From Myxococcales bacterium (GTDB lineage: Bacteria; Myxococcota; Polyangia; Nannocystales; Nannocystaceae): 57,667 nt of DNA. Shown in pieces: positions 5,663-19,258 of the stretch. The notes under the pieces were generated by a model. That model was not told the origin of the DNA and ran no database searches. It saw only the letters and a list, made by a program, of their open reading frames with translations. Each line of letters starts with the position of its first letter. Within the stretch, counting starts at the first letter, position 1. The stretch is from the NCBI GenBank assembly GCA_016793465.1, contig JAEUJW010000084.1, positions 1-57,667 on the forward strand, given 5' to 3'. Position numbers and translations under genes: made by a program.

Positions 5663-6565
5663 TCAGCGGTCGACGAGCTCGGGCGGCGGCGGCAGGTCGG
5701 CCACGAACTCGGTGTCGGCGAGCGGGCCGTCGAGCAGGCGGGCCATGCGCTCGGCGGCGTCGTGGTCGAGCTGGGTCTGGGCCTCGACGTAGCGGCCGTA
5801 CACCACGCGGGCCGCGAACTCGGGGTCGAGCGCGGCGAGGACCGCGGCGAAGCGCGGCTCGTGGGGGTGGATCCCCGGCGAGCAGGCGAACAGGCGCCCG
5901 TAGCCGAACGGCCAGGCCTCGGCGACGCCGCGGTCCTCGGTGAGCGCCGCCACCAGATCGAGCGACGCCGCGGCGCCCGGGCACGGGCTGCAGTCGGTCT
6001 CCATCAGCGCCACGCCGGCGAGGTGGCGCGTCGCCGGGTCCTCGTCGGCGGCGCGCAGGCGGCGGAGCTCGTTGGTGCGGTCGTCGCAGCGCCCGGGCTC
6101 GACGTCGGCCGGGCGCAGCACCGCCGGCGGAACGATCTGCAGGACCCGCAGGCGCAGCGCGTCGGCGGCGTCGGCGGGGCGCAGCGCGAGCGCCTCGCCG
6201 TGCGCCGGCAGCTGCAGCGTCACGTCGACCGGGCCGTCCTCGACCCACAGCAGGCCGAGCGCCGGGCCCTCGGCGGTGCGTCCGGCCAGCGCGACCACGC
6301 GGCCGCACGGCGTCGGCAGGGCGAAGCGGCCGGCGGCGTCGCTGTGGGTCGACACGCGGGCCGCGCGGTCGAGCGTGGTCGCGGCCACCTGCGTGAAGGG
6401 TCGCGGCGTCGCCTCATCGTCGACGAGCGTGCCGCGCACGCCGCAGCCCATGCCCTCGCCGGGGCCCGGGTCGCGGGCGGGCGTCGGCGCGGGCGCGGGC
6501 GTCGGCGCGGGGGGCAGCGCGCGGCAGGCCGCGAGGGCGAGGAGGAGTGCGAGGGCGGGGCGCAC
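5663..6565 (-). CDS. Secreted lipoprotein with carboxypeptidase-regulatory-like domain
   Basis: 300 residues when started at GTG 6565, which puts a lipoprotein signal (RPALALLLALAAC) at the N-terminus. Longer frames upstream only read the GC repeats at 6567-6720. After a Pro/Ala linker, GCGVRGTLVDD through VDVTLQLP (about residues 40-125) looks like an immunoglobulin-like carboxypeptidase regulatory domain, including the usual THSDAAGRFAL turn. The rest is Ala-rich and probably helical, with isolated cysteines (CDDRTNELRR, METDCSPCPG). I do not recognise this C-terminal part. It probably sits on the outer surface or in the periplasm. It may be co-transcribed with the gene upstream at 6713-7177. 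Confidence 0.65.
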   Translation of the reverse strand: MRPALALLLALAACRALPPAPTPAPAPTPARDPGPGEGMGCGVRGTLVDDEATPRPFTQVAATTLDRAARVSTHSDAAGRFALPTPCGRVVALAGRTAEGPALGLLWVEDGPVDVTLQLPAHGEALALRPADAADALRLRVLQIVPPAVLRPADVEPGRCDDRTNELRRLRAADEDPATRHLAGVALMETDCSPCPGAAASLDLVAALTEDRGVAEAWPFGYGRLFACSPGIHPHEPRFAAVLAALDPEFAARVVYGRYVEAQTQLDHDAAERMARLLDGPLADTEFVADLPPPPELVDR

Positions 6566-6566
6566 G

Positions 6567-6720
6567 GGCGGGGCTCCGGTCAGCGGGGCGAGGGTGGGGG
6601 CACGGGCGGGGCTCCGAGGAGCGGGGCGAGGGTGGGGGCACGGGCGGGGCTCCGAGGAGCGGGCGAGGGCGGGGCGCACGGGCGGGGCTCCGGCGCACGG
6701 GCGGGGCTCCGGTCAGCGGG
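6567..6720. repeat. GC-rich tandem repeats downstream of the CX3C lipoprotein gene
   Basis: Variants of GGGCGGGGCTCCG recur about five times with a period near 38 bp, first regular and then shortened. The array begins within the last codons of the minus-strand gene ending at 6713 and reaches to the GTG start of the next gene at 6565. Confidence 0.75.
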
Positions 6721-7177
6721 GCGCGGGGCGCACGCCCGGCGGCAGCTCGGTGCCGGGCGCGAGCTCGGTGCCGGGCACGACCTCGAGGGTCTGCTTGGGA
6801 GCCGGGGTCGCCTCGATCTCGGCGTCCTCGGAGCAGGTCAGCAGGCAGGTCGCGCGGTTGGTCTCGCTGAGCGTGCGGTCGTCCCAGCAGCCGACGAGGC
6901 AGCCGCGCAGGTGCTCGTAGGCGCGGCGGGCGGCCGGGTCCGCGGCGGCGCCGAGCGACAGCTCGGCCAGGTCGTCGCACTCGAGCTTGCAGGTCTCGCG
7001 GTTGGTCGCGCTCGTGCGGCTCGTGTAGCACTCGCCGTAGCACTTGCCGTAGGCGTCGATGCGGGCCGCGAGCGGGGTGGTGGCGGTGGTGGGCGTCGAC
7101 CACGGGTCGCAGGCCGCGGCGAGCAGGCAGGCGGCCGCGAGCGCGGCGCGGGGGGCGGTGAGGGTCGGCTTGGACAT
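6713..7177 (-). CDS. CX3C-rich lipoprotein, member of the sigma-54 regulon
   Basis: 154 residues from ATG 7177, preceded by a GGAG ribosome site. The signal peptide ends in a lipobox (CLLAAAC). The mature part holds two copies of a hairpin-like unit: KCYGEC, 12 residues, TCKLEC; then GCLVGC, 13 residues, TCLLTC. Both copies carry a TNRxTC stretch, so this is an internal duplication. Paired CX3C motifs on helices are typical of small disulfide-locked helical hairpins; they could also bind a metal or cofactor. A sigma-54 promoter (7209-7224) with an upstream motif at 7287-7299 places it under the same control as the ATPase and stress proteins. The Pro/Gly-rich C-terminus is probably disordered. 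Function unknown. Confidence 0.75.
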   Translation of the reverse strand: MSKPTLTAPRAALAAACLLAAACDPWSTPTTATTPLAARIDAYGKCYGECYTSRTSATNRETCKLECDDLAELSLGAAADPAARRAYEHLRGCLVGCWDDRTLSETNRATCLLTCSEDAEIEATPAPKQTLEVVPGTELAPGTELPPGVRPAPR

Positions 7178-7208
7178 GGCGGGCTCCGGGGAGGGCACGG
7201 GCCCGTAA

Positions 7209-7224
7209 GGCAAGCCACGTGCCA
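7209..7224 (-). promoter_or_regulatory. Sigma-54 promoter of the CX3C lipoprotein gene
   Basis: On the minus strand the sequence reads TGGCACGTGGCTTGCC, a full match to the -24/-12 consensus with exact GG-N10-GC spacing. It lies 33 nt before the start codon. Confidence 0.85.
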
Positions 7225-7286
7225 GGCCGGCGGCGAGTCGTCGCGCGCGCCGGGTGCGGGCCAGGGCGCCGCGTTCTGCGGGCACA

Positions 7287-7299
7287 TGCACGGATTGCC
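7287..7299. promoter_or_regulatory. Upstream activator motif (regulon copy 1)
   Basis: TGCACGGATTGCC, inside the longer string GCACATGCACGGATTGCC that also occurs, with one to two changes, upstream of the metallo-beta-lactamase gene (11286). It sits about 70 bp upstream of the -24 element. Confidence 0.65.
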
Positions 7300-7372
7300 G
7301 GGCGGCGCTCGTACGTTCGGCGTTGCGCGGAGGTCCCTCTCGAAGGCCCCGGGAGGCCGATCGCGGCGTGGG

Positions 7373-9855
7373 TCACGAGCCCGAGGCTCCGGCGTGCTTG
7401 CAGCGCTCGAACCACAGCACGCTGAGCGGGCCGAGCAGCGCCCACGCCAGCAGCTGCGGGGCGGGCACCGCGGCGAAGCGCAGGGTCTCGCGCACGGGCG
7501 GGACGTAGAGGGCCGCCAGCAGCGCGGCGAGGCCGCCGAGCACGACCCACCACATGGCCCGGTTGGGCGTCCGCAGCACGCGCGGCAGCGGGGCGGTCCA
7601 CGAGCGGTGGAGCACGATGAGCCCGAGGTCGGCGAACACCAGGGTGGCGAAGGTGACGCTCTGGGCCACCGCGAACGGCTGGCCGCGGGTGACGAGGCTG
7701 AAGTAGAGGGCGGCGAGGCAGGCCGCGAGCACCGACAGGCCCTGGGCCAGGCACAGCGCGAGGGTCCGGCGGTCGAGCAGGGGGGCGTCGGCGGGGCGGG
7801 GCGGGCGGCGCATGAGGCCGGGCTCGGCGGGCTCGGCCTCGAACACCACCGAGCAGGCGGGGTCGATGACGAGCTCGAGCAGGACCACGTGGACCGGATG
7901 GAGCAGCTGCGGCAGGCCGAACAGCAGGGGCACCAGGGCCACGCCGGCGATCGGCACGTGCACGGCGACGATGAAGCCGAGGGCCTTGCGCAGGTTGTCG
8001 AAGATGCGCCGGCCCTCGGCCACCGCGGCCACGAGATCGGTGAAGTCGTCGCGGGTCAGCACGATCGCCGCGGCCTCGCGGGCGACGTCGGTGCCGCGCC
8101 CGCCCATGGCCACGCCGATCTGCGCGGCCTTGAGGGCGGGCGCGTCGTTCACTCCGTCGCCGGTCATGGCCACCACCTCGCCGGCGGCCTGCAGCGCGCG
8201 CACGACCCGGAGCTTCTGCGCCGGCAGCACGCGCGCGCAGATCTCGACGCCGACCAGGCGCGCGGGCAGCTCGGCGTCACCGATCTCGGACAGCTCGGCG
8301 CCGGTCAGCAGGCGCTCGCCGCCGAGGCCGACCGCGGCGCCGATCGCCTGCGCGGTGCCGGGGTAGTCGCCGGTGATCATGACCACGCGGATCGCCGCCC
8401 GCCGGCACTCGGCCAGCGCCGCCGCGACCTCGACGCGCGGCGGGTCCTGCAGGCCGACGAGGCCCACGTACGTGCAGGCGAACCCGCCCGGGTCGTCCGG
8501 CAGCGGCGCGCCCTCGGGGTGCTCGGCGCGGGCCACCGCGAGCACGCGCAGGCCGGTCGCCGTCATCGCCGCGAGCGCGCCGCGCAACTGCTCGCGGGCG
8601 TCGGCGTCGAGGCGGCACAGCCCGGCGACGGCCTCGGGGGCGCCCTTCACCGCCACCAGCGTGCGGCCCGCGGGCGCGCGCCACACGTGGGTCACGGCCA
8701 GCAGCTGCGGGGTCAGCGGGTAGTCGCGCACGCGCTGCCAGTCGGGGTGGGCGCGCTCGGGCAGGCGCGTCAGCAGGCGCGCGCAGGCCTCGTCGATCGG
8801 GTCGAAGGTCTCGCGTCGGCTGGCCAGGGCCGCGTGCTCGGCGAGGGCGCGCAGCGCGGGGGGCGGCGGCTCGTCGCCGGCGGCCCGCCAGGTCGCCTCG
8901 GCGGTCCGCAGCTCGACCACGGTCTGGCGGTTGTGGGTGAGCGTGCCGGTCTTGTCGACGCACAGCACGGTCGCGCCGCCGAGGGCCTCGAGCGCCTCGA
9001 CGCGGCGGACCAGCACCTGGCGCCGCGACATGCGCCACGCGCCGAGCGCGAGGAACACGGTCAGCACGACCGGGAACTCCTCGGGCAGCAGCGACATGGC
9101 GAGGGTGAGGCCGGCGAGCAGGCCCTCGAGCCAGGCGCCGCGGCCGAGCCCGAGGATCAGCACCACGACGGCGCAGCAGGCCAGGCCGGCGAGGCCGAAG
9201 ATCCGCACCAGGCGGCCGATCTCGCGCTGGACCCGCGAGGGCTCGGGGGTCAGGTCGGCCAGCGACGCGCCGATCTTGCCGAGCTCGCTGCGCGGGCCGG
9301 TCGCGGCGACCTCGGCGACGCCGTGGCCGCCGACCACCAGGGTGCCGGCGAACACCCGCGCGGGCGCGCCGTCCCCGGCCGCCTTGGCGACCGCCAGCGA
9401 CTCGCCGGTCAGCAGCGACTCGTCGATCGCGAGGTTGGTGGCCGCCAGCAGCGCGGCGTCGGCGGGCACGCGGTCGCCCTCGCGCAGGCGCACGACGTCG
9501 CCGACCACCAGCTCGGCGCCGGGGATGCGGCGCTCGACGCCGTCGCGGACGACCAGCGCGCGCGGGCTCGAGAGGTCGCGCAGGGTGGCGACGGCGCGGT
9601 CGGTCCGGCGCGCCTGCACGATCGTGATGGTCAGCACCAGCAGCACGCAGGCCAGCAGGATCGCGGCCTCGCGGCGGTCGCCGAGCACCAGGTACACGCC
9701 GGCGCAGGTCAGCAGCAGCGCGAGCATCGGCTCGCGCACGACGTCGAGCACGAGCCGGCCGAGCTTGCGGCCGGCGTCGCGGGGCAGGGTGTTGGGGCCG
9801 TCGCGGGTCAGCCGCGCGGCGGCCTCGGACGCCGACAGGCCGGCGAGGCGGGCGC

Positions 9856-9859
<4 letters not shown>
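7373..9859 (-). CDS. Cation-transporting P-type ATPase (P2-like)
   Basis: 828 residues. The GTG start at 9859 overlaps the stop of the upstream metallo-beta-lactamase gene (GTGA), so the two are translationally coupled. Domains in order: an N-terminal cation-ATPase segment (LAGLSASEAAARLTRDGPNTLP), a first membrane pair, an actuator domain with LLTGES, a membrane helix with SLLPEEFPVVLT, the phosphorylation motif DKTGTLTHN (Asp about residue 302), the nucleotide domain with VKGAPEAV, the hinge MTGDGVNDAP, and a C-terminal membrane region of about six helices. PEEFP in helix 4 resembles the calcium/magnesium-type P2 family rather than heavy-metal pumps, and no N-terminal metal-binding domain is present. 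The ion is not determinable. Mycobacterial DosR controls a similar pump (CtpF), which fits the regulon context. Confidence 0.88.
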
Positions 9860-11220
<1,361 letters not shown>

Positions 11221-11233
11221 GGCGGCGGCCCGA

Positions 11234-11249
11234 AGCAATCGCCGTGCCA
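11234..11249 (-). promoter_or_regulatory. Sigma-54 promoter of the MBL/P-type ATPase operon
   Basis: Minus strand TGGCACGGCGATTGCT with GG-N10-GC. The C of the -12 dinucleotide is at 11235, so initiation 12 nt later would fall about 3 nt before the ATG at 11220. Confidence 0.85.
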
Positions 11250-11290
11250 GGCCGCTCCGCGAGGCCGCGCGCCGGCGCGGCGCCTGCACA

Positions 11291-11303
11291 TGCACGGCTT
11301 GCA
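11291..11303. promoter_or_regulatory. Upstream activator motif (regulon copy 2)
   Basis: TGCACGGCTTGCA, the best match to the consensus and a near-palindrome with TGCA at both ends. A further TGCA lies just outside at 11285. Its centre is about 50 bp from the -24 element. Confidence 0.7.
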
Positions 11304-11319
11304 GGTCCCGGCAGCGCGT

Positions 11320-11570
11320 GCGGGTCGGCGGGAGGCGACGAGCAGGCCGAGCCCGACCGCGGCCGCGAGGGTGGCGGTGCGTGCGGGTCGGCGGGCGGAG
11401 GCGACGAGCAGGCCGAGCCCGACCGCGGCCGCGAGGGTGGCGGTGCGGGTCAGCGGGCGGGGGCGACGAGCAGGCCGAGCCCGACCGCGGCCGCGAGGGT
11501 GGCGGTGCGGGTCAGCGGGCGAAGGCGACGAGCAGGCCGAGCCCGACCGCGGCCGCGAGGGTGGCGGCGA
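11320..11570. repeat. Tandem duplication of the 3' end of the MgtC-like gene
   Basis: Four copies of a unit starting GGCGACGAGCAGGCCGAGCC at 11333, 11400, 11462 and 11524 (spacings 67, 62, 62). The last copy contains the true C-terminal codons of the minus-strand gene. The other three lie beyond its stop codon and still encode LAAAVGLGLLVA followed by a residue and AR. Copies also include the GTCAGCGGGCG stop region, so the duplicated unit carries the stop. Confidence 0.85.
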
Positions 11571-12762
11571 GCGGGCGGCCGAACTCGCGGCGGCCGAGGC
11601 TCAGCGCCGTCGCGGCCTTGACCAGCGAGTTGGCGACCACGGCGACGAGGATGGCGCGGCTCGCGGTCGCGTGCGCGAGGTCGCCGGCGTGGGACTGGCG
11701 GCTGACCGCGAGCGTGACCGCGTCGACGTCGGCGAGGCCGGAGGCGGCGGCGGCGACGAGCAGGCCGCGGTCGCCGAACTGCGCGCGGGCGGCGGCGGCG
11801 ACCACCAGCACCAGCGAGAGCACCACGCCCCAGCGCAGCGCGGGCAGCAGGGCGAACGGGTTGGTGAGCGGCACCGGGTCGGACGGGCCGGCCCCCAGCG
11901 CGCCGGCCCGCAGGCGCCGGGCGGTCGCGGCCAGCAGCACCACCGCCATGGCGCCGAGCGGGGGCGCGAGCGCGGCCGCGATGCCGCGGTCGATCAGCGC
12001 CGCGACCACCAGCACCCGCGCGAGCATCACCGTGTTGGCCAGCAGCGCGGCGACGCGGGCCGGCCCGTCCGGCGCGCCGGCGCGCGACTGCTGGGCCATC
12101 GCCAGGGTCACCGCGGTCGAGCTGACGAGCCCGCCGACGAGGCCGCCGAGCGCCGCGCCGCGCGAGGGCCCGAGCAGGCGGTGGAGGAAGTAGCCGACGT
12201 AGCCGACGCCGGCGACGAGCACGATGAAGAGGCCGATCTTGCGCGGCGACAGCACGCCCCAGGGGTCGCGGGCCTCGACCGGCAGCAGCGGCAGGACCAC
12301 CGCCAGCACGACCGCCAGCTGCACGGTCGCCGACAGCTCGACCTGGCGCAGGCGGGGGATGGTCCGGCGGAACCACGGCTTGGCGACCAGCAGCAGGGTC
12401 ACGACCAGGCCGACCGCGACCGCGAGGTCGCGGCGGTGGTGCACGAGCATGCCGAGCGCGAACGTCGCGACCGCGGCGACCTCGGTGGTCATGCCGAGGT
12501 CGCGGTCGCCGACGCGGAGGTAGTGCGCGAGCACCAGCCCGCCGGCGACCACCAGCCCGGCCGGCGGCAGCCACGGCAGGCCGTCGCCGAGGACCGCGCA
12601 CGTCCACCCGAACAGCGCGAGGATCGCCAGCGTGCGCACGCCGACGTGGTCCTCCGAGTGCGCGCCCTCGCCGTCGCTGTGCTCGCGCTCGAGGCCGATG
12701 AACAGGCCGATGCCGCCGGCGACCGCGGCCTCGAGCATCAGCGGGAGCGTGGCGGGGTCCAT
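11512..12762 (-). CDS. MgtC/SapB-DUF4010-type membrane protein
   Basis: 416 residues from ATG 12762. The N-terminus (LEAAVAGGIGLFIGLEREHS) followed by GVRTLAILALFGW is the MgtC/SapB signature; the longer remainder, with LVGGLVSSTAVTLAMAQQSR and ASGLADVDAVTLAVSRQS, matches the DUF4010 half of the large two-part members. About 12 hydrophobic segments indicate an inner-membrane protein. MgtC family proteins are linked to magnesium homeostasis and ATP synthase control in enterobacteria; the role of the long form is not established. It has its own sigma-54 promoter, divergent from the regulatory operon, with one activator motif shared between them. Confidence 0.85.
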   Translation of the reverse strand: MDPATLPLMLEAAVAGGIGLFIGLEREHSDGEGAHSEDHVGVRTLAILALFGWTCAVLGDGLPWLPPAGLVVAGGLVLAHYLRVGDRDLGMTTEVAAVATFALGMLVHHRRDLAVAVGLVVTLLLVAKPWFRRTIPRLRQVELSATVQLAVVLAVVLPLLPVEARDPWGVLSPRKIGLFIVLVAGVGYVGYFLHRLLGPSRGAALGGLVGGLVSSTAVTLAMAQQSRAGAPDGPARVAALLANTVMLARVLVVAALIDRGIAAALAPPLGAMAVVLLAATARRLRAGALGAGPSDPVPLTNPFALLPALRWGVVLSLVLVVAAAARAQFGDRGLLVAAAASGLADVDAVTLAVSRQSHAGDLAHATASRAILVAVVANSLVKAATALSLGRREFGRPLAATLAAAVGLGLLVAFAR

Positions 12763-12774
12763 GGCGCCGCGGTC

Positions 12775-12790
12775 AGCAAGCCGCGTACCA
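12775..12790 (-). promoter_or_regulatory. Sigma-54 promoter of the MgtC-like gene
   Basis: Minus strand TGGTACGCGGCTTGCT with GG-N10-GC. The predicted start of transcription (about 12764) is only about 2 nt before the ATG at 12762. Confidence 0.85.
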
Positions 12791-12833
12791 GGCGGGCCGA
12801 CGCCGGCCGCCGGCCCCCGCGGGCGCGCCGGCG

Positions 12834-12846
12834 TGCACGGACTGCG
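12834..12846. promoter_or_regulatory. Upstream activator motif shared by divergent promoters (copy 3)
   Basis: TGCACGGACTGCG, about 51 bp from the -24 element of the MgtC-like gene and about 82 bp from that of the regulatory operon. It is the only copy seen in this 187-bp intergenic region, so one bound activator could serve both sides. Confidence 0.6.
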
Positions 12847-12920
12847 TGTCGCCGCAACCGCGGGGCGGCGCGCCCTGGGCCCGCGCCGCCAACTCGGTCC
12901 GCCCGCGATCCGCACGCGGG

Positions 12921-12936
12921 TGGTACGGGTCTTGCT
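12921..12936 (+). promoter_or_regulatory. Sigma-54 promoter of the globin kinase/NtrC operon
   Basis: TGGTACGGGTCTTGCT with GG-N10-GC. The -12 C at 12935 lies 15 nt before the ATG at 12950. Its presence suggests that the activator controls its own operon. Confidence 0.85.
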
Positions 12937-12949
12937 GACCCCGGCCCCC

Positions 12950-13345
12950 ATGCCGTCGCTCACCCCGGTGTCCGCCCCAGAGTCCTTGCAGGTGCTCGTC
13001 GTCGAGGACGACGAGCGTTCGGGCCGCAAGCTCGCCGACCTCCTGCGCCGCGACGGCTTCGCCGTCGAGGTGTGCCCGGGCGGCCTCGCCGGGCTGCAGC
13101 GCCTGGCCGACGGACCGGCGCCGGACGTGCTGGTGACCGACTTGCGGATGCCGCAGATCGATGGCATCACCGTGGCCCGCCTGGCGCGCACGCAGAGCCC
13201 GACGATGCCGATCCTCATTGTCACGGCCTACCCCGACCTGGCGCGCCGCCTCGACGGCGACGAGCCCACGCCGCAGCTGTTCGTCAAGCCGCTCGACTAC
13301 CCGGCGTTCGTCGGGGCGCTCCGCGGGCTGCGCAAGGACGCCTGA
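12950..13345 (+). CDS. Single-domain response regulator
   Basis: 131 residues from ATG 12950. It is a bare receiver domain: the acidic pair VVEDDE, the phospho-acceptor in VTDLRMPQIDG, the Thr of ILIVTAYPD and the Lys of LFVKPLDYP are all present, and no output domain follows. It is the first gene of an operon with the haem-globin kinase (1 nt gap) and the NtrC-type activator, and it has a sigma-54 promoter. It could act as a phosphate sink or shuttle between kinase and activator, or tune the kinase by binding. Confidence 0.85.
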   Translation: MPSLTPVSAPESLQVLVVEDDERSGRKLADLLRRDGFAVEVCPGGLAGLQRLADGPAPDVLVTDLRMPQIDGITVARLARTQSPTMPILIVTAYPDLARRLDGDEPTPQLFVKPLDYPAFVGALRGLRKDA

Positions 13346-13346
13346 C

Positions 13347-14991
13347 ATGCTGCTGCCCGTGCCGGCCCGCGAGACGCGCTTCGAGGAGATGAAGCGCTAC
13401 GTCGAGTTCTCGCCCGAGGACGCCGCGCTGCTGGCCGGCTTCCGCGAAGCCGCCGCGCCGCACTTCGAGCGCATCGCCCAGGAGTTCTACGACCGCATCC
13501 GCCTGCACGAGGCGGCCCACGCGGTGTTCACCGGCGAGGCGCAGATCGCCCGCCTGCAGCGCTCGCTGGTCCGCTGGCTCGGGCGGGTGTTCGGCGGCAC
13601 CTACGACGAGGCGTACTTCGCCGACACCACCGCGATCGGCCGGGTCCACGTCAAGGTCGGGCTGCCGCAGCGCTACATGTTCACGGCCATGGCGCTGATC
13701 CGCCTGTCGCTGATGGCCATCGCCGAGGCCTCGGGGCGGGGCGGCACCCGCGTCGCCCGGGCGATCTGCCGCATCCTCGACCTCGAGCTGGCGATCATGC
13801 TCGAGAGCTACCGCGACGACTCGATCTCCCGCGTGCAGCACGCGCTGTGCCTCGAGAAGGAGGCCCTCGGCCGCGACCTCGCGCAGACCCAGCACCGCTA
13901 CGTCAACGCGGTCGAGCTGGCGCGCGTGCTGATCGTCGGCCTCGACCCCGCCGGCGGCGTGCGCCTGTTCAACCGCGAGGCCGAGCGCGTCACCGGCTTC
14001 GCCCGCGACGAGGTGCTCGGCCGCGACCTCGCGGACGCCCTCGGCATGGACCCGGACGACGACGGCGCCCGCGTCGGCGCGCTGCTCGCGGCCTTCCGCG
14101 CGGCCGAGGCCGCGGCGGCGCCCGGCCGCGACCCGCCGCCGATCGAGACGACGATCCGCGGCAAGGCCGGCCACCCGCGGGTGATCCGCTGGCACCTCAC
14201 CCACGCCCCGGCCGACGACGACGACGTGGCCGTGTTCGCCATCGGCCTCGACACCACCGACGAACGCGCCCGCCAGGACCACGTCAAGCAGCAGGAGCGG
14301 CTCGCGGCCATCGGCACGCTCGCCGCCGGGCTCGCCCACGAGATCCGCAACCCGCTCAACGGCGCCCAGCTCCACGTCACCGAGCTCGACCTGGCCCTGC
14401 GCGACATGCACGCCGACGCCGACCTGCTCGACACGGTCCACGTCGTGCGCGACGAGATCCGCCGGCTCGGCGGGCTCGTCACCGAGTTCCTCGACTTCGC
14501 CCGCCCGCGCCCGCTGCAGCTGAAGCCGGTCGTGGCCCAGGAGCTGCTGCGGCGCGCCGCCCAGATGACGGCCGCCCAGGCCCAGGCCCGCGGCGTGGCG
14601 GTCGCGCTCGACCTGCCGCCGGCGGACATCGAGCACCTGGCCGACCGCGCCAAGCTCGAGCAGGTGCTCCTCAACCTGACCCAGAACGCGATCGAGGCGC
14701 TCGAGCCCGGCGGCCGCGTGGTGCTCCGCGCGCGCCGTCAGCCGCGGACGGTCACCCTCGAGGTCGAGGACGACGGCCCCGGCATCCCGCCCGGCACGCC
14801 GATCTTCGACGCGTTCTTCTCGACCAAGGCGCAGGGCACCGGCCTCGGGCTGTCGATCACCCACCGCATCGTCACCGACCACGGCGGCACGATCGACTAT
14901 GAGACCGGCCCCGGCCGCACGCTGTTTCGTGTATTACTGCCGGTGACGGGTCCCCACACGCGGGGGCCACCCAGCGATCCGGTGACGATCC

Positions 14992-15011
<20 letters not shown>
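13347..15011 (+). CDS. Globin-coupled PAS histidine kinase (haem-based gas sensor)
   Basis: 554 residues. Residues 1-165 look like a globin-coupled sensor domain: the helical pattern of [25 protein letters not shown], and [15 protein letters not shown], where His101 would be the proximal haem ligand (the family motif is roughly IGxxHxxxxLPxxxY). Residues ~185-305 form a PAS domain ([29 protein letters not shown]). The kinase core has the H-box [11 protein letters not shown] (His331), the N-box [17 protein letters not shown] and GTGLGLSI. No membrane segment is seen, so it should be cytoplasmic. By analogy with known globin-coupled sensors it probably binds oxygen (possibly NO or CO). Its 3' end overlaps the NtrC gene by 20 bp, which strongly suggests they are partners. 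Confidence 0.85.
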
Positions 15012-16359
<1,348 letters not shown>

Positions 16360-16369
16360 GCGGCCCGTC

Positions 16370-16382
16370 TGCAAGCCGTGCG
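16370..16382. promoter_or_regulatory. Upstream activator motif (regulon copy 4)
   Basis: TGCAAGCCGTGCG; its reverse complement CGCACGGCTTGCA matches the consensus except at the first base. Its centre is about 71 bp from the -24 element of the first universal stress gene. Confidence 0.6.
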
Positions 16383-16445
16383 CCCGGCGAAGCGCGTGCG
16401 CCTCCGGGGCCGCGCGAGGCGCCGATTGTCGGCGGCGCGCCCGGT

Positions 16446-16461
16446 TGGTACGCCGGCTGCA
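16446..16461 (+). promoter_or_regulatory. Sigma-54 promoter of universal stress gene 1
   Basis: TGGTACGCCGGCTGCA with GG-N10-GC. The predicted transcription start (about 16472) is 3 nt before the ATG at 16475, although a GAGG that resembles a ribosome site lies upstream of that start. Confidence 0.8.
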
Positions 16462-16474
16462 GTCGAGGCGCGGC

Positions 16475-17341
16475 ATGACCCCCGACAAGCCCTGGATCCT
16501 CGGCCTCGACCTCGGCCCCCGCTGCAGCGGCGCCCTGCGGTTCGCCCGCCTGCTGCGCGAGCGCCTGCACGCGCGCGTGGTCGGCACGTTCGTCAGCGAG
16601 ACCTGGCAGCTCGGGCCGCCGCCCGGCGACGGCGGGGCGCTGGCGCTGGCGCTGCGCGACGAGGCCGGGCGCTGGCTGGCCGGCCTGCACGCGGGCGCCG
16701 CCGACGCGGCGGTCGACGCCACGCGGATCGTCGACGAGGTCGACGCCGAGGCCGGGCTGGCGTCCGCCGCCCGCGAGGCCGCCGGCGTGGTGATCGGCCG
16801 GCGGTTGACCACGCCGGACAGCTGGTCGCGCCTCGGCCGGGTCGCGCGGCGGCTGCTGCGGCGGCTGCCCGCGCCGGTCATCGTGGTCCCGCCCGAGCTG
16901 GCGCTCGACGACTTCGGCGGGCCGATCTTGCTGGCCACCGACCGCGGCGATCGCAGCGCCGGCGCGGCCCGCTTCGCCGTCGCCCTGGCGGCCGGGCTCG
17001 GGCGCCCGCTGATCTGCGCGCACGTCGGCGAGCCCCTGTGGGACGAGTACGGCGCGCTCGCCCCGTGGCGCGACGAGCTGCGCGCGACCCACCGCGAGGC
17101 GACCGAGCGGGCCGCCCGCGAGTGGGTCGCCCGCCACTGCCCGGGCGCCGAGCTGCTGGTCGAGTACGGCGACGCGGTCGACCGCCTGGTCGCGCTGAGC
17201 GAGCACCGCCGCCCGAGCCTGCTGGTCGTCGGCTCGGGCCGGCCGCAGATCGTCGAGCGCATCTTCGTGGGCAGCACGGCCAGCGCCGTCGCGGCCGCGG
17301 CCGCGTGCGCCGTCGCGGTCGTGCCGCCCGACGCGGCGTAG
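16475..17341 (+). CDS. Tandem universal stress protein (UspA family) 1
   Basis: 288 residues, two UspA-like domains. Domain 1 (about 5-142) starts WILGLDLGPRCSGALRFA and lacks a clear nucleotide loop. Domain 2 (about 147-288) starts GPILLATDRGDRSAGAARFA and ends VVGSGRPQIVERIFVGSTAS, the G-x2-G-x9-G-S/T pattern of ATP-binding family members. The same protein plan recurs at 18368-19258, so the two genes are paralogues. Tandem USPs are a hallmark of hypoxia and dormancy regulons such as DosR. The sigma-54 promoter upstream places the gene in the globin kinase regulon. Cytoplasmic. Confidence 0.9.
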   Translation: MTPDKPWILGLDLGPRCSGALRFARLLRERLHARVVGTFVSETWQLGPPPGDGGALALALRDEAGRWLAGLHAGAADAAVDATRIVDEVDAEAGLASAAREAAGVVIGRRLTTPDSWSRLGRVARRLLRRLPAPVIVVPPELALDDFGGPILLATDRGDRSAGAARFAVALAAGLGRPLICAHVGEPLWDEYGALAPWRDELRATHREATERAAREWVARHCPGAELLVEYGDAVDRLVALSEHRRPSLLVVGSGRPQIVERIFVGSTASAVAAAAACAVAVVPPDAA

Positions 17342-17363
17342 CCGTCGCGGAGCGAGCGGGCGG

Positions 17364-17426
17364 CGGGGCTTCGAACGCTCGCGGAGGGGCTTCGAACGCT
17401 CGCGGCGGGGCTTCGAACGCTCGCGC
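17364..17426. repeat. Three 21-bp direct repeats containing TTCGAA
   Basis: GGGGCTTCGAACGCTCGCG occurs with TTCGAA starting at 17370, 17391 and 17412. It lies between the convergent universal stress gene 1 and cytochrome c gene, just beyond the cytochrome stop codon (17435). Confidence 0.85.
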
Positions 17427-17434
17427 CGGGGCGG

Positions 17435-18160
17435 TCAGCGACCGTCCGCGTGGCAGGCCGCGCAGGTGGCGAGCAAGCCGCCGTAGATCGCCACGCGCTC
17501 GTCCCAGTCGCGGGCCGTCGCGGCCCGCGCCCCGAACGCGCGCAGCCGGGCCTCGACCACCAGCGGGTCGCCCTCGATCTCGACGTCGGGCGGATAGTCG
17601 GCGCGCAGCAGGGCCGGGTCGGCCAGCGCCGCCGCGCCGGACGTCCAGGCCGCGTCGCTGTGCCCGACCATCGCCTCCCACAGGCGGTCGGCGGCCCACT
17701 GGTGCCGCCGCATGCGCTGCCGGGGGTCGCGGCTGGTGATCGCCGGCGCGACCCGGGCCGGGAACGCGGGGCCCACGGTCGCGGCGTGGCAGTCGCCGCA
17801 GGTCCGCGCCAGCCCGGCGGCGGCCAGCGCCGCCGCGTCGAGGTCGGCGGCGACCAGCAGCGCCTTCGCGTGGCGGGCGGTCGCGGCGATGTACGGCCGC
17901 CACGCCGGCGGCTCGTCGCCGTCCCACTCGACCAGCCGCAGCGCCGGCGCCCGCAGCTCGTCGATCCGGCCGGCGATCACCGCGTCCTTGATGAACAGCG
18001 AGTCCTCGAAGTGCCGCGTCATCCGCGGCCCGGTCCCCGGCGGCGGGCCCGGGGCGTCGGGCGCCGCGGCGACGACCGGCTGCGGCGCCGCGGCGGTGAG
18101 CGAGCCGCCGTCGCAGGCGGCGAGCAGGAGCAGCAGCAGGTGCGAGGCGCGAGGCGTCAT
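17435..18160 (-). CDS. Dihaem cytochrome c lipoprotein
   Basis: 241 residues from ATG 18160. A lipoprotein signal (SHLLLLLLAAC) is followed by a Pro/Ala linker and a domain with two CxxCH haem sites, CGDCH near the middle and CAACH at the very C-terminus. Helical segments such as MRRHQWAADRLWEAMVGHSD lie between them. It is probably membrane-anchored in the periplasm and takes part in electron transfer or peroxide handling. The haem count and spacing do not match a named enzyme family that I can identify. It has a sigma-54 promoter, divergent from universal stress gene 2, with one activator motif between them. Confidence 0.85.
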   Translation of the reverse strand: MTPRASHLLLLLLAACDGGSLTAAAPQPVVAAAPDAPGPPPGTGPRMTRHFEDSLFIKDAVIAGRIDELRAPALRLVEWDGDEPPAWRPYIAATARHAKALLVAADLDAAALAAAGLARTCGDCHAATVGPAFPARVAPAITSRDPRQRMRRHQWAADRLWEAMVGHSDAAWTSGAAALADPALLRADYPPDVEIEGDPLVVEARLRAFGARAATARDWDERVAIYGGLLATCAACHADGR

Positions 18161-18171
18161 GCCGGCGCCTC

Positions 18172-18187
18172 AGCAACCCGCGTGCCA
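18172..18187 (-). promoter_or_regulatory. Sigma-54 promoter of the cytochrome c gene
   Basis: Minus strand TGGCACGCGGGTTGCT with GG-N10-GC. The -12 C at 18173 lies 13 nt before the ATG, so the predicted leader is about 1 nt. Confidence 0.82.
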
Positions 18188-18230
18188 CGCCCCGTCGACC
18201 GCGCGACGCGGCCGCGCCGGCGACGGTCGG

Positions 18231-18243
18231 TGCAGCGCTTGCA
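18231..18243. promoter_or_regulatory. Upstream activator motif shared by divergent promoters (copy 5)
   Basis: TGCAGCGCTTGCA, with TGCA at both ends but a changed centre relative to the other copies. It is about 51 bp from the cytochrome -24 element and about 79 bp from that of universal stress gene 2, the same geometry as the divergent pair at 12834. Confidence 0.6.
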
Positions 18244-18314
18244 GTCGTCGCAGGAAGTGCACCGCGGGCGCCCCCGTGGGGCCGCGAACCCCGGCGACCG
18301 CGAGGCCGCGCGCC

Positions 18315-18330
18315 TGGCACGCGGCTTGCC
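18315..18330 (+). promoter_or_regulatory. Sigma-54 promoter of universal stress gene 2
   Basis: TGGCACGCGGCTTGCC with GG-N10-GC. The start codon is at 18368, leaving a leader of about 27 nt. Confidence 0.87.
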
Positions 18331-18367
18331 CTGGGGCGGTCACGGATCGTCGGAGACGACTGCTGCC

Positions 18368-19258
18368 ATGAACGACCGAACCTCTCCATCCCCCCGCGCT
18401 CGACCCTCCTCGCCGGCGACCGCCGACGCCCGCTGGGTCGTCGGGCTCGACCTCGGCGAGCGCAGCCTCGGCGCCCTCGCGTTCGCCCACTGGCTCAGCC
18501 ACGACTCCGACCACATGGTCGGGGTCTACGTGCTCGAGACGTGGATGCGACCCTACGTCGAGGTCGACGTGATCACCAGCGTCCACTCCGCGGTCGCGGG
18601 CGCGGCGACGCGGCTGCGGATCCCCGCGCCCGCGCGGGTCACCGTGGTCGAGGCGATGAGCGCCGAGGACGGCCTCGCCCGCGCCGCCGAGGGCGCCGCC
18701 GGCCTCGTCATCGGCCGGGCCGCGCGCGCCGGCGAGGCGCCGATGGTCCGCCTCGGCCACGTCGCCCGCCGGCTGCTGCGCACGCTCCCCGGCCCGGTCG
18801 TGGTCGTGCCCCGCGACCTGACGGCGGTCGCCGCCGGCCCGGTGCTGCTGGCGACCGACCTCGACGACACCACCACCGCGGCCCTGCCGTTCGCCCAGGC
18901 GCTGGCGGCCCGCCACGGCCGCAAGCTCGAGCTGGTGCACGTCGGCGAGGCCCGCCACAACGACCTCATCGACGAGCTCGAGCCGAGCTGGCTCGCCGCC
19001 CGCGAGGAGCACCGCGCCACGGTCGAGCGCGAGCTCGGCGCATGGGCGCACGCCCACGGGCTCGGCGAGCTGCGCCGCCACGTCGGCTACGGCGACCCGG
19101 CGCTGAAGATCGCGGAGATCGCCGCGGCCCGCGACGCCGCGCTGGTGGTCGTCGGCTCGCGCCACCTCGGCATCGTCGGCCGGATCTTCCTCAGCAGCAC
19201 GGCGTCGGCGCTCGCCGGCGCGGCGACCTGCCCGGTCGCGGTCGTGCCGCCCGCGTGA
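18368..19258 (+). CDS. Tandem universal stress protein (UspA family) 2
   Basis: 296 residues from ATG 18368. After a Ser/Pro/Arg-rich tail of about 22 residues, two UspA domains follow, beginning WVVGLDLGERSLGALAFA and GPVLLATDLDDTTTAALPFA. The second ends VVGSRHLGIVGRIFLSSTAS, which keeps the ATP-loop spacing. It is paralogous to the protein at 16475-17341: both share the RLGHVARRLLR-like stretch between domains and the CPVAVVPP-type end. A longer frame is open upstream but would run through the sigma-54 promoter. Confidence 0.9.
   Translation: MNDRTSPSPRARPSSPATADARWVVGLDLGERSLGALAFAHWLSHDSDHMVGVYVLETWMRPYVEVDVITSVHSAVAGAATRLRIPAPARVTVVEAMSAEDGLARAAEGAAGLVIGRAARAGEAPMVRLGHVARRLLRTLPGPVVVVPRDLTAVAAGPVLLATDLDDTTTAALPFAQALAARHGRKLELVHVGEARHNDLIDELEPSWLAAREEHRATVERELGAWAHAHGLGELRRHVGYGDPALKIAEIAAARDAALVVVGSRHLGIVGRIFLSSTASALAGAATCPVAVVPPA

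Follow-up and report, generated by a model that had tools for sequence, protein, structure and literature searches.

The region from 6713 to 19258 of contig JAEUJW010000084.1 (assembly GCA_016793465.1), from a relative of Nannocystis, encodes a globin-coupled histidine kinase, a lone receiver domain and an NtrC-type activator in one operon, together with seven sigma-54 promoters, each with an inverted repeat upstream. The whole stretch analysed, hereafter the window, is 57,667 nucleotides (nt) long; gene annotation was limited to the region named, which holds ten genes. We propose, from sequence comparison, that the region forms a compact, autoregulated oxygen-response regulon of the type controlled by NmpR in Myxococcus xanthus, with a probability of roughly 0.7. 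It is a real and well-supported regulatory unit, whose main interest lies in a shortened signalling path and in the question of its sign.

A strict scan of the window, which required GG and GC and tolerated no more than one mismatch to TGGYACN5TTGCW, returned exactly seven sites; 200 dinucleotide shuffles averaged 0.71 sites and never exceeded 4. These are the same GG-N10-GC sites that a sequence-only reading of the window had picked out, and its placement of each in front of a gene also held, all seven being intergenic and aimed at a gene 12-38 nt downstream:

7209-7224, minus strand: sigma-54 promoter TGGCACGTGGCTTGCC of the lipoprotein gene, 32 nt to the start codon
11234-11249, minus strand: sigma-54 promoter TGGCACGGCGATTGCT of the nuclease-ATPase operon, 14 nt to the start codon
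12775-12790, minus strand: sigma-54 promoter TGGTACGCGGCTTGCT of the MgtC-like gene, 13 nt to the start codon
12921-12936, plus strand: sigma-54 promoter TGGTACGGGTCTTGCT of the regulatory operon, 14 nt to the start codon
16446-16461, plus strand: sigma-54 promoter TGGTACGCCGGCTGCA of the first universal stress protein (USP1) gene, the weakest of the seven, 14 nt to the start codon
18172-18187, minus strand: sigma-54 promoter TGGCACGCGGGTTGCT of the cytochrome gene, 12 nt to the start codon
18315-18330, plus strand: sigma-54 promoter TGGCACGCGGCTTGCC of the second universal stress protein (USP2) gene, 38 nt to the start codon

The site at 16446 carries 2 mismatches to TGGCACN5TTGCW. That the seven are chance matches in high-GC DNA is hardly credible: a plain 3-mismatch scan, itself uninformative, does show no excess (156 sites against 158 expected), but the strict scans, the pairing of every site with a repeat and the recurrence of such pairs in relatives contradict chance through their shuffles and controls.

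An inverted repeat with the core GCA-N5-TGC lies 41-74 base pairs (bp) upstream of every promoter in the window. The repeats are mostly close to TGCA-N5-TGCA, and at a threshold of at least 7 of its 8 letters all seven promoters have one, against 0.005 in shuffles (maximum 1). Five repeats serve the seven promoters:

7287-7299, minus strand: putative activator site GGCAATCCGTGCA (7 of 8 letters), gap 62
11291-11303, minus strand: putative activator site TGCAAGCCGTGCA (8 of 8), gap 41
12834-12846: putative activator site TGCACGGACTGCG (7 of 8), common to the divergent promoters at 12775 (gap 43) and 12921 (gap 74)
16370-16382, plus strand: putative activator site TGCAAGCCGTGCG (7 of 8), gap 63
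18231-18243: putative activator site TGCAGCGCTTGCA (8 of 8), common to the divergent promoters at 18172 (gap 43) and 18315 (gap 71)

Weaker, overlapping repeat copies follow 18231-18243 in 9-base steps. Within a search range of 35-85, the gaps of core sites cluster at 41-46, 52-54, 59-64, 71-75 and 81-84; in the window and in its relatives alike they tend to differ by whole helical turns. Helical phasing of the promoter-proximal sites gave p 0.002 in the window (n=7), although these gaps are not independent, since divergent promoters use common sites. It gave p 0.0005 for 13 promoters of loci of the NmpU/NmpS type, and a marginal p 0.056, with a best period of 8.4, for 14 promoters of other kinase-relative loci.

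Pairs of a sigma-54 box and a core repeat recur in relatives. A search with the window kinase gave 38 loci, two of them outside Myxococcota, where the match is confined to the part after the globin; the survey omitted L036 to L038 (one partial, two not Myxococcota) and replaced L028 by the wider pieces L098 and L099. Seven pairs were counted in the window (shuffle expectation 0.0), 34 in eight Nannocystis motif loci with a linked NtrC gene (0.0 expected), 14 in 23 other kinase-relative loci (0.2 expected) and 13 in 13 loci retrieved through the AfGcHK globin or NmpS-like kinases (0.25 expected). Five Nannocystis kinase loci without NtrC held 0 pairs. Blind scans of six Nannocystis genomes with the composite pattern placed all matches in kinase clusters except one, at an ATPase gene of N. 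exedens, and the reversed pattern gave 0 matches in all three scans of these genomes. The exceptional match is 0.43 Mb away from the kinase. Its sigma-54 box and repeat (gap 61) immediately precede a frame of 588 residues (L100 2252-4115), which shares 68% identity with the window ATPase from residue 257 onwards.

The placement of these pairs recalls that in the window at several genes. A pair stands directly before the receiver-kinase operon in 6 of 7 Nannocystis cluster copies, and the second NtrC gene is likewise preceded. Pairs also precede lipoprotein-like genes in five Nannocystis loci, the proteins being distant relatives (27-28% where BLAST aligns). USP genes beside the clusters have a pair in 5/5 cases, with weaker boxes (2 mismatches), compared with 0/8 for other USP copies and a background of 31 in 20,000 stretches; relatives of USP2 at 53-60% occur in 6/6 Nannocystis genomes. 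In L018, a relative whose kinase is of the window type, one pair stands in front of a P-type ATPase gene, and a COX1 and FixO (cbb3-type) oxidase gene comes next; this order links the window-type branch to the physiology of the NmpR regulon.

The regulators that would act on these sites lie in the operon read from 12921:

12950-13345, plus strand: lone receiver domain (Response_reg 3.2e-16)
13347-15011, plus strand: globin-coupled histidine kinase with Protoglobin (residues 9-158, 3.7e-32), PAS, HisKA (His331) and HATPase_c domains
14992-16359, plus strand: NtrC-type activator with Response_reg, Sigma54_activat and HTH_8 domains and GSFTGA at residue 227 (Pfam and alignment)

The activator gene overlaps the kinase gene by 20 bases. 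Pfam domains agree with the operon of globin kinase, receiver and NtrC activator read from the letters alone, and the profile search that had been suggested for the kinase N-terminus returned Protoglobin. Over residues 8-158 the globin aligns with that of AfGcHK (PDB 5ohe) at E 2.4e-37, its Tyr48 and His101 falling on the distal Tyr45 and proximal His99 of AfGcHK; haem binding is thus predicted. The activator has a receiver, an AAA+ domain with the GSFTGA variant of the GAFTGA loop and a Fis-type helix-turn-helix, and it is the only NtrC among the genes at 6713-19258. In a quick tree without bootstrap it falls in a 41-row clade (support 99 in the Shimodaira-Hasegawa-like approximate likelihood ratio test) that also holds the NtrC genes of NmpRSTU-type loci; 22 other NtrC rows, of which 20 come from two of the same genomes, lie outside it. 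This tree covers the rows with long matches from 30 fetched loci out of 73 matches, M. xanthus NmpR not included. One NtrC linked to a fusion kinase (L026) departs from a tidy grouping by falling among the NmpR-like rows.

According to PMC11841059 and PMC6211767, the protoglobin kinase NmpU of M. xanthus phosphorylates NmpT and the receiver of NmpS, and NmpS in turn phosphorylates NmpR. In the window this four-protein relay appears to be reduced to one kinase, whose globin is NmpU-like, one NtrC and a lone receiver. The labels NmpU, NmpT, NmpS and NmpR given to other loci rest on domain layout and BLAST to the window genes, not on the M. xanthus proteins. So labelled, NmpS-type kinases outscore NmpU-type kinases against the window kinase domain in all seven loci holding both (184/113 bits in L150 and 197/102 in L151), and the phospho-acceptor segment of the window kinase is NmpS-like, an NmpU-type example being GQLAASIGHELRNPLG. 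In the kinase tree 9 of 11 NmpU rows form a separate group (99/92), and the 27 fusion rows fall inside a 42-row set (98/98) with 7 of 8 NmpS rows, the eighth (L142) branching just outside. The set also includes the joint kinases of G077 and G287, four others and two deviant rows, L145 and L147, which were labelled NmpU by globin and length and have kinase domains on the NmpS side. These last two (L147 8465-11088 and L145 9953-12618) are PAS-less globin kinases beside NmpR-like NtrC genes, possibly further independent sensor swaps.

A second globin-PAS kinase, in G077 (L153), occupies the position that the NmpU-NmpT-NmpS run holds in G108, with the same genes on either side, and the tree nests its kinase half next to the NmpS of G108 (100/99); its globin is strongly diverged and lacks the distal Tyr. 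Globin and NmpS-type kinase were thus apparently joined more than once. A single origin of all globin-NmpS fusions was rejected by the globin tree with L153 included (approximately unbiased test, p 0.008), with the caveats that L153 is a long branch and that the group was named after the kinase tree was seen. On the kinase tree the fusion rows require two changes, and the direction for the Polyangia type, fusion from relay or the reverse, is unsettled. At the syntenic place in G287 (L152 9736-10743) the globin segment of the kinase gene is almost wholly gone, the sensor apparently decaying after the joint.

We give even odds to the idea that the phosphorelay has collapsed here, the NmpU globin sitting directly on the PAS-kinase half of NmpS so that the middle steps are unnecessary, and that this joining took place at least twice in Myxococcota (in the Polyangia/Nannocystis type and, separately, within the NmpS branch in G077). 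If so, and if the sign of the output is unchanged, the globin must silence the window kinase on binding oxygen, yet it activates the kinase of AfGcHK. Relay and direct kinase would then form a natural pair acting through the same class of DNA site, with which one could test how the sign of a haem sensor is set and why NmpRSTU has extra steps.

The lone receiver is 30-41% identical to receivers of other fusion operons and 26-31% to receivers of the NmpT type, against 15-23% to five NmpS-type receivers; its derivation from an orphaned NmpS receiver was therefore rejected. A metagenomic protein of 350 residues (P0006), a close relative, has a lone receiver and a globin in one open frame, possibly a fusion or a sequencing error, and its C-terminal end looks frame-shifted.

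The mechanism we propose would run as follows. Once oxygen had left the haem (His101/Tyr48), the kinase, with its catalytic half of the NmpS type, would phosphorylate NtrC. An NtrC oligomer would then occupy the repeats, 41-74 bp ahead of the -24 box and for the most part on the same helix face, and its GSFTGA loop would open the sigma-54 polymerase. Expression would rise for both USPs, for the beta-CASP nuclease and the cation pump of its operon, for the MgtC-like protein, cytochrome and Cys-rich lipoprotein, and for the regulatory genes. The lone receiver probably acts as a sink or competitor for phosphate, a role that has been proposed for NmpT. In this chain we infer haem and oxygen binding, transfer from kinase to NtrC, binding of NtrC to the repeats and activation at low oxygen.

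The weakest step is the sign: the active state of AfGcHK has oxygen bound, that of NmpS, in its authors' model, does not. PMC8697598 describes AfGcHK as active in the Fe(II)-O2, Fe(III) and Fe(II)-CO forms and inactive as Fe(II), which weighs against the proposed regulon by implying the opposite sign unless the NmpS-type half reverses it. An oxygen-bound active kinase would turn the genes on when oxygen is plentiful or returning, as expected of a direct globin kinase that lacks a reversing NmpS step and has AfGcHK as its best-studied relative. We nevertheless consider this unlikely: the kinase half is NmpS-like, NmpS being on at low oxygen by the model set out in PMC6211767, and the content common with the NmpR regulon (USP, P-type ATPase and, in L018, a cbb3-type oxidase) is a low-oxygen set. 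A sensor of nitric oxide, carbon monoxide or redox state in place of oxygen would suit the Fe(III) and Fe(II)-CO activity of AfGcHK, but is improbable when the distal Tyr48 aligns with Tyr45, the oxygen-recognising distal residue of AfGcHK (PMC8697598), and the regulon parallels one concerned with oxygen use.

Further observations count against the regulon as proposed, chiefly in the conservation of its target promoters. In N. pusilla Na p29 a single stretch, some 23 kb long, holds the kinase orthologue and orthologues of most window genes, the USPs not included, at identities of 61% (nuclease), 49% (cytochrome), 43% (MgtC-like), 68% (ATPase), 45-47% (lipoprotein) and 79% (NtrC). Nine site pairs lie in the 38 kb read around it. 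None was found within 900 bp before the single nuclease and cytochrome orthologues, the lipoprotein and receiver-kinase genes of this strain, or the two full-length ATPase orthologues (N. pusilla Na p29 and DSM 53165), and the pair nearest its MgtC-like orthologue is 488 bp off, with another frame between. Gene content is thus common to the window and N. pusilla Na p29, but pair placement is not. The N. exedens ATPase of the blind scan lacks about 256 N-terminal residues; full-length ATPase orthologues in Nannocystis are 66-68% identical. The Polyangium loci and every Sorangium locus but one (L035) have no pairs at this stringency despite an NtrC about 70% identical to that of the window where seen, so the wiring is not universal. 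Within the window, 4 of 7 promoters have one core site, while the bound M. xanthus promoters had two. Finally, Nannocystis clusters carry a second NmpR-type NtrC, a possible binder.

With two such NtrC genes there, the main user of the sites might be a different NmpR-type NtrC encoded elsewhere in the genome, with the local pair of kinase and NtrC as only one input; we see little prospect of this, one NtrC being present among the genes at 6713-19258 and pairs being absent from the Nannocystis kinase loci that lack NtrC. The claim of a globin-kinase/NtrC regulon is supported as the best reading: the same kind of upstream site at every promoter and the presence of pairs in Nannocystis clusters, with none where NtrC is missing, bear it out. 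Conservation of the pairs is not shown for the nuclease, cytochrome, MgtC-like and full-length ATPase orthologues. That pairs are conserved at every target was rejected, the nuclease, cytochrome, full-length ATPase and Na p29 lipoprotein orthologues being without a pair directly upstream. The nuclease gene and the MgtC-like gene each occur in one of six Nannocystis genomes at the cut-offs applied and are accordingly accessory. Extra pairs in N. pusilla Na p29 lie at L098 2969, 3616, 6235, 12265 and 12481; the genes behind the first two, for a rhomboid protease and a protein without family, are candidate regulon members.

The remaining genes were identified by Pfam profile search of the predicted proteins, and codon-position GC directly backs seven of the ten:

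6713-7177, minus strand: lipoprotein with four CX3C motifs and no known family (no Pfam match; homologues; structure model)
7373-9859, minus strand: P-type cation ATPase with a GTG start, downstream gene of the beta-CASP operon (E1-E2_ATPase 2.1e-43, Cation_ATPase_C)
9856-11220, minus strand: beta-CASP metallo-beta-lactamase nuclease (Beta-Casp 6.3e-34, Lactamase_B, RMMBL)
11512-12762, minus strand: MgtC/DUF4010 membrane protein (DUF4010 1.7e-54, MgtC 1.2e-10)
16475-17341, plus strand: two-domain universal stress protein 1 (Usp 9.4e-27)
17435-18160, minus strand: cytochrome c-like lipoprotein with CXXCH motifs at residues 121 and 233 (motifs; Pfam below cut-off)
18368-19258, plus strand: two-domain universal stress protein 2 (Usp 4.1e-29)

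The beta-CASP, MgtC-like and CX3C lipoprotein assignments of the sequence-only reading are borne out, and others need amendment. Both USPs are Usp proteins by Pfam, but they are not in tandem, the cytochrome gene lying between them on the other strand; the P-type ATPase is correctly named but has no promoter of its own, sitting behind the nuclease gene, which it overlaps by 4 bases; and the dihaem cytochrome c has its two CXXCH motifs but no Pfam match above the cut-off. In the lipoprotein family 8 Cys are invariant, all in paired CX3C motifs (53 aligned proteins), and the structure model predicts four helices, each with one CX3C motif; a fold search with the model gave 0 of 173 matches at E <= 0.001. 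Six CX3C motifs were seen in 5 of 6 Nannocystis relatives inspected. A tandem repeat with a 62-base unit (3.8 copies at 95%) occupies 11331-11567, extending out of the 3' end of the MgtC-like gene in the direction of the nuclease promoter, and other short repeat arrays lie at 6538-6692 and 17360-17432.

Transcription from sigma-54 promoters starts about 11 nt past the last base of the -12 box. At five of the seven promoters (11234, 12775, 12921, 16446 and 18172) that base lies 12-14 nt before the annotated start codon, so the predicted mRNA leaders are 0-4 nt long and the messages nearly leaderless, the short spacing of the receiver gene being ambiguous because a later GTG start is possible. 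In N. pusilla Na p29 (L098 and L099) the first in-frame start is 12-18 nt off at 6 of 9 pairs; of the rest, one has a start 62 nt away and two have no called gene. In N. bainbridge, N. poenicansa and N. pusilla DSM 53165 the lipoprotein genes have their first in-frame start 14-15 nt from the promoter, and Nannocystis regulator genes have longer leaders of 23-85 nt.

Matches to the kinase at E <= 1e-60 occur in 17 of 282 sampled Myxococcota genomes, 11 of them near full length and 6 in the kinase half only; at E <= 1e-90 they occur in 6 of 29 genomes of the N. exedens family, all Nannocystis, with one to three copies each. The AfGcHK globin has matches in 131 of 377 genomes, and the globin domain has 1025 protein matches at E <= 0.001 (best 120 of 1025 listed). 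A literature search found no regulon described for PAS-bearing globin kinases; the window offers a candidate regulon for part of this large family of globin-domain proteins.

In the mycobacterial DosR regulon, too, a haem-kinase system controls USPs and a cation P-type ATPase, with a LuxR-type regulator and GAF-haem kinases. The likeness to DosR that had been drawn from gene content holds in function, as an analogy only, since the window has an NtrC/sigma-54 activator and a protoglobin sensor, and NmpRSTU and AfGcHK of Myxococcota are nearer. With AfGcHK (Anaeromyxobacter sp. Fw109-5) the comparison concerns the globin half, which aligns and keeps proximal His and distal Tyr; the window kinase adds a PAS domain and the NmpS-type phospho-acceptor segment.

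The closest studied system found is NmpRSTU of M. xanthus, a low-oxygen NtrC regulon, rather than DosR. As described in PMC11841059, the sequence bound by NmpR is GCGCA-N5-TGCGC, and every bound site matches its GCA-N5-TGC part. The sigma-54 promoters that NmpR drives are those of the regulators, of a USP, of a P-type ATPase together with cbb3 oxidase, and of hemN together with a hemerythrin; one promoter of the regulon rises 6.5-fold in hypoxia. The window differs in having neither an NmpS hybrid of receiver and kinase nor a double-receiver NmpT among the genes at 6713-19258; its globin sits on an NmpS-like PAS kinase, whereas NmpU has no PAS and a kinase domain of its own type; and where the NmpR half-sites are GCGCA/TGCGC, those of the window mostly resemble TGCA. 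The sections of PMC11841059 and PMC6211767 consulted describe no beta-CASP, MgtC-like, lipoprotein or cytochrome gene of this kind as an NmpR target. What the two systems have in common is a protoglobin kinase, an NmpR-type NtrC, sigma-54 promoters with GCA-N5-TGC repeats, autoregulation, and USP and P-type ATPase targets.

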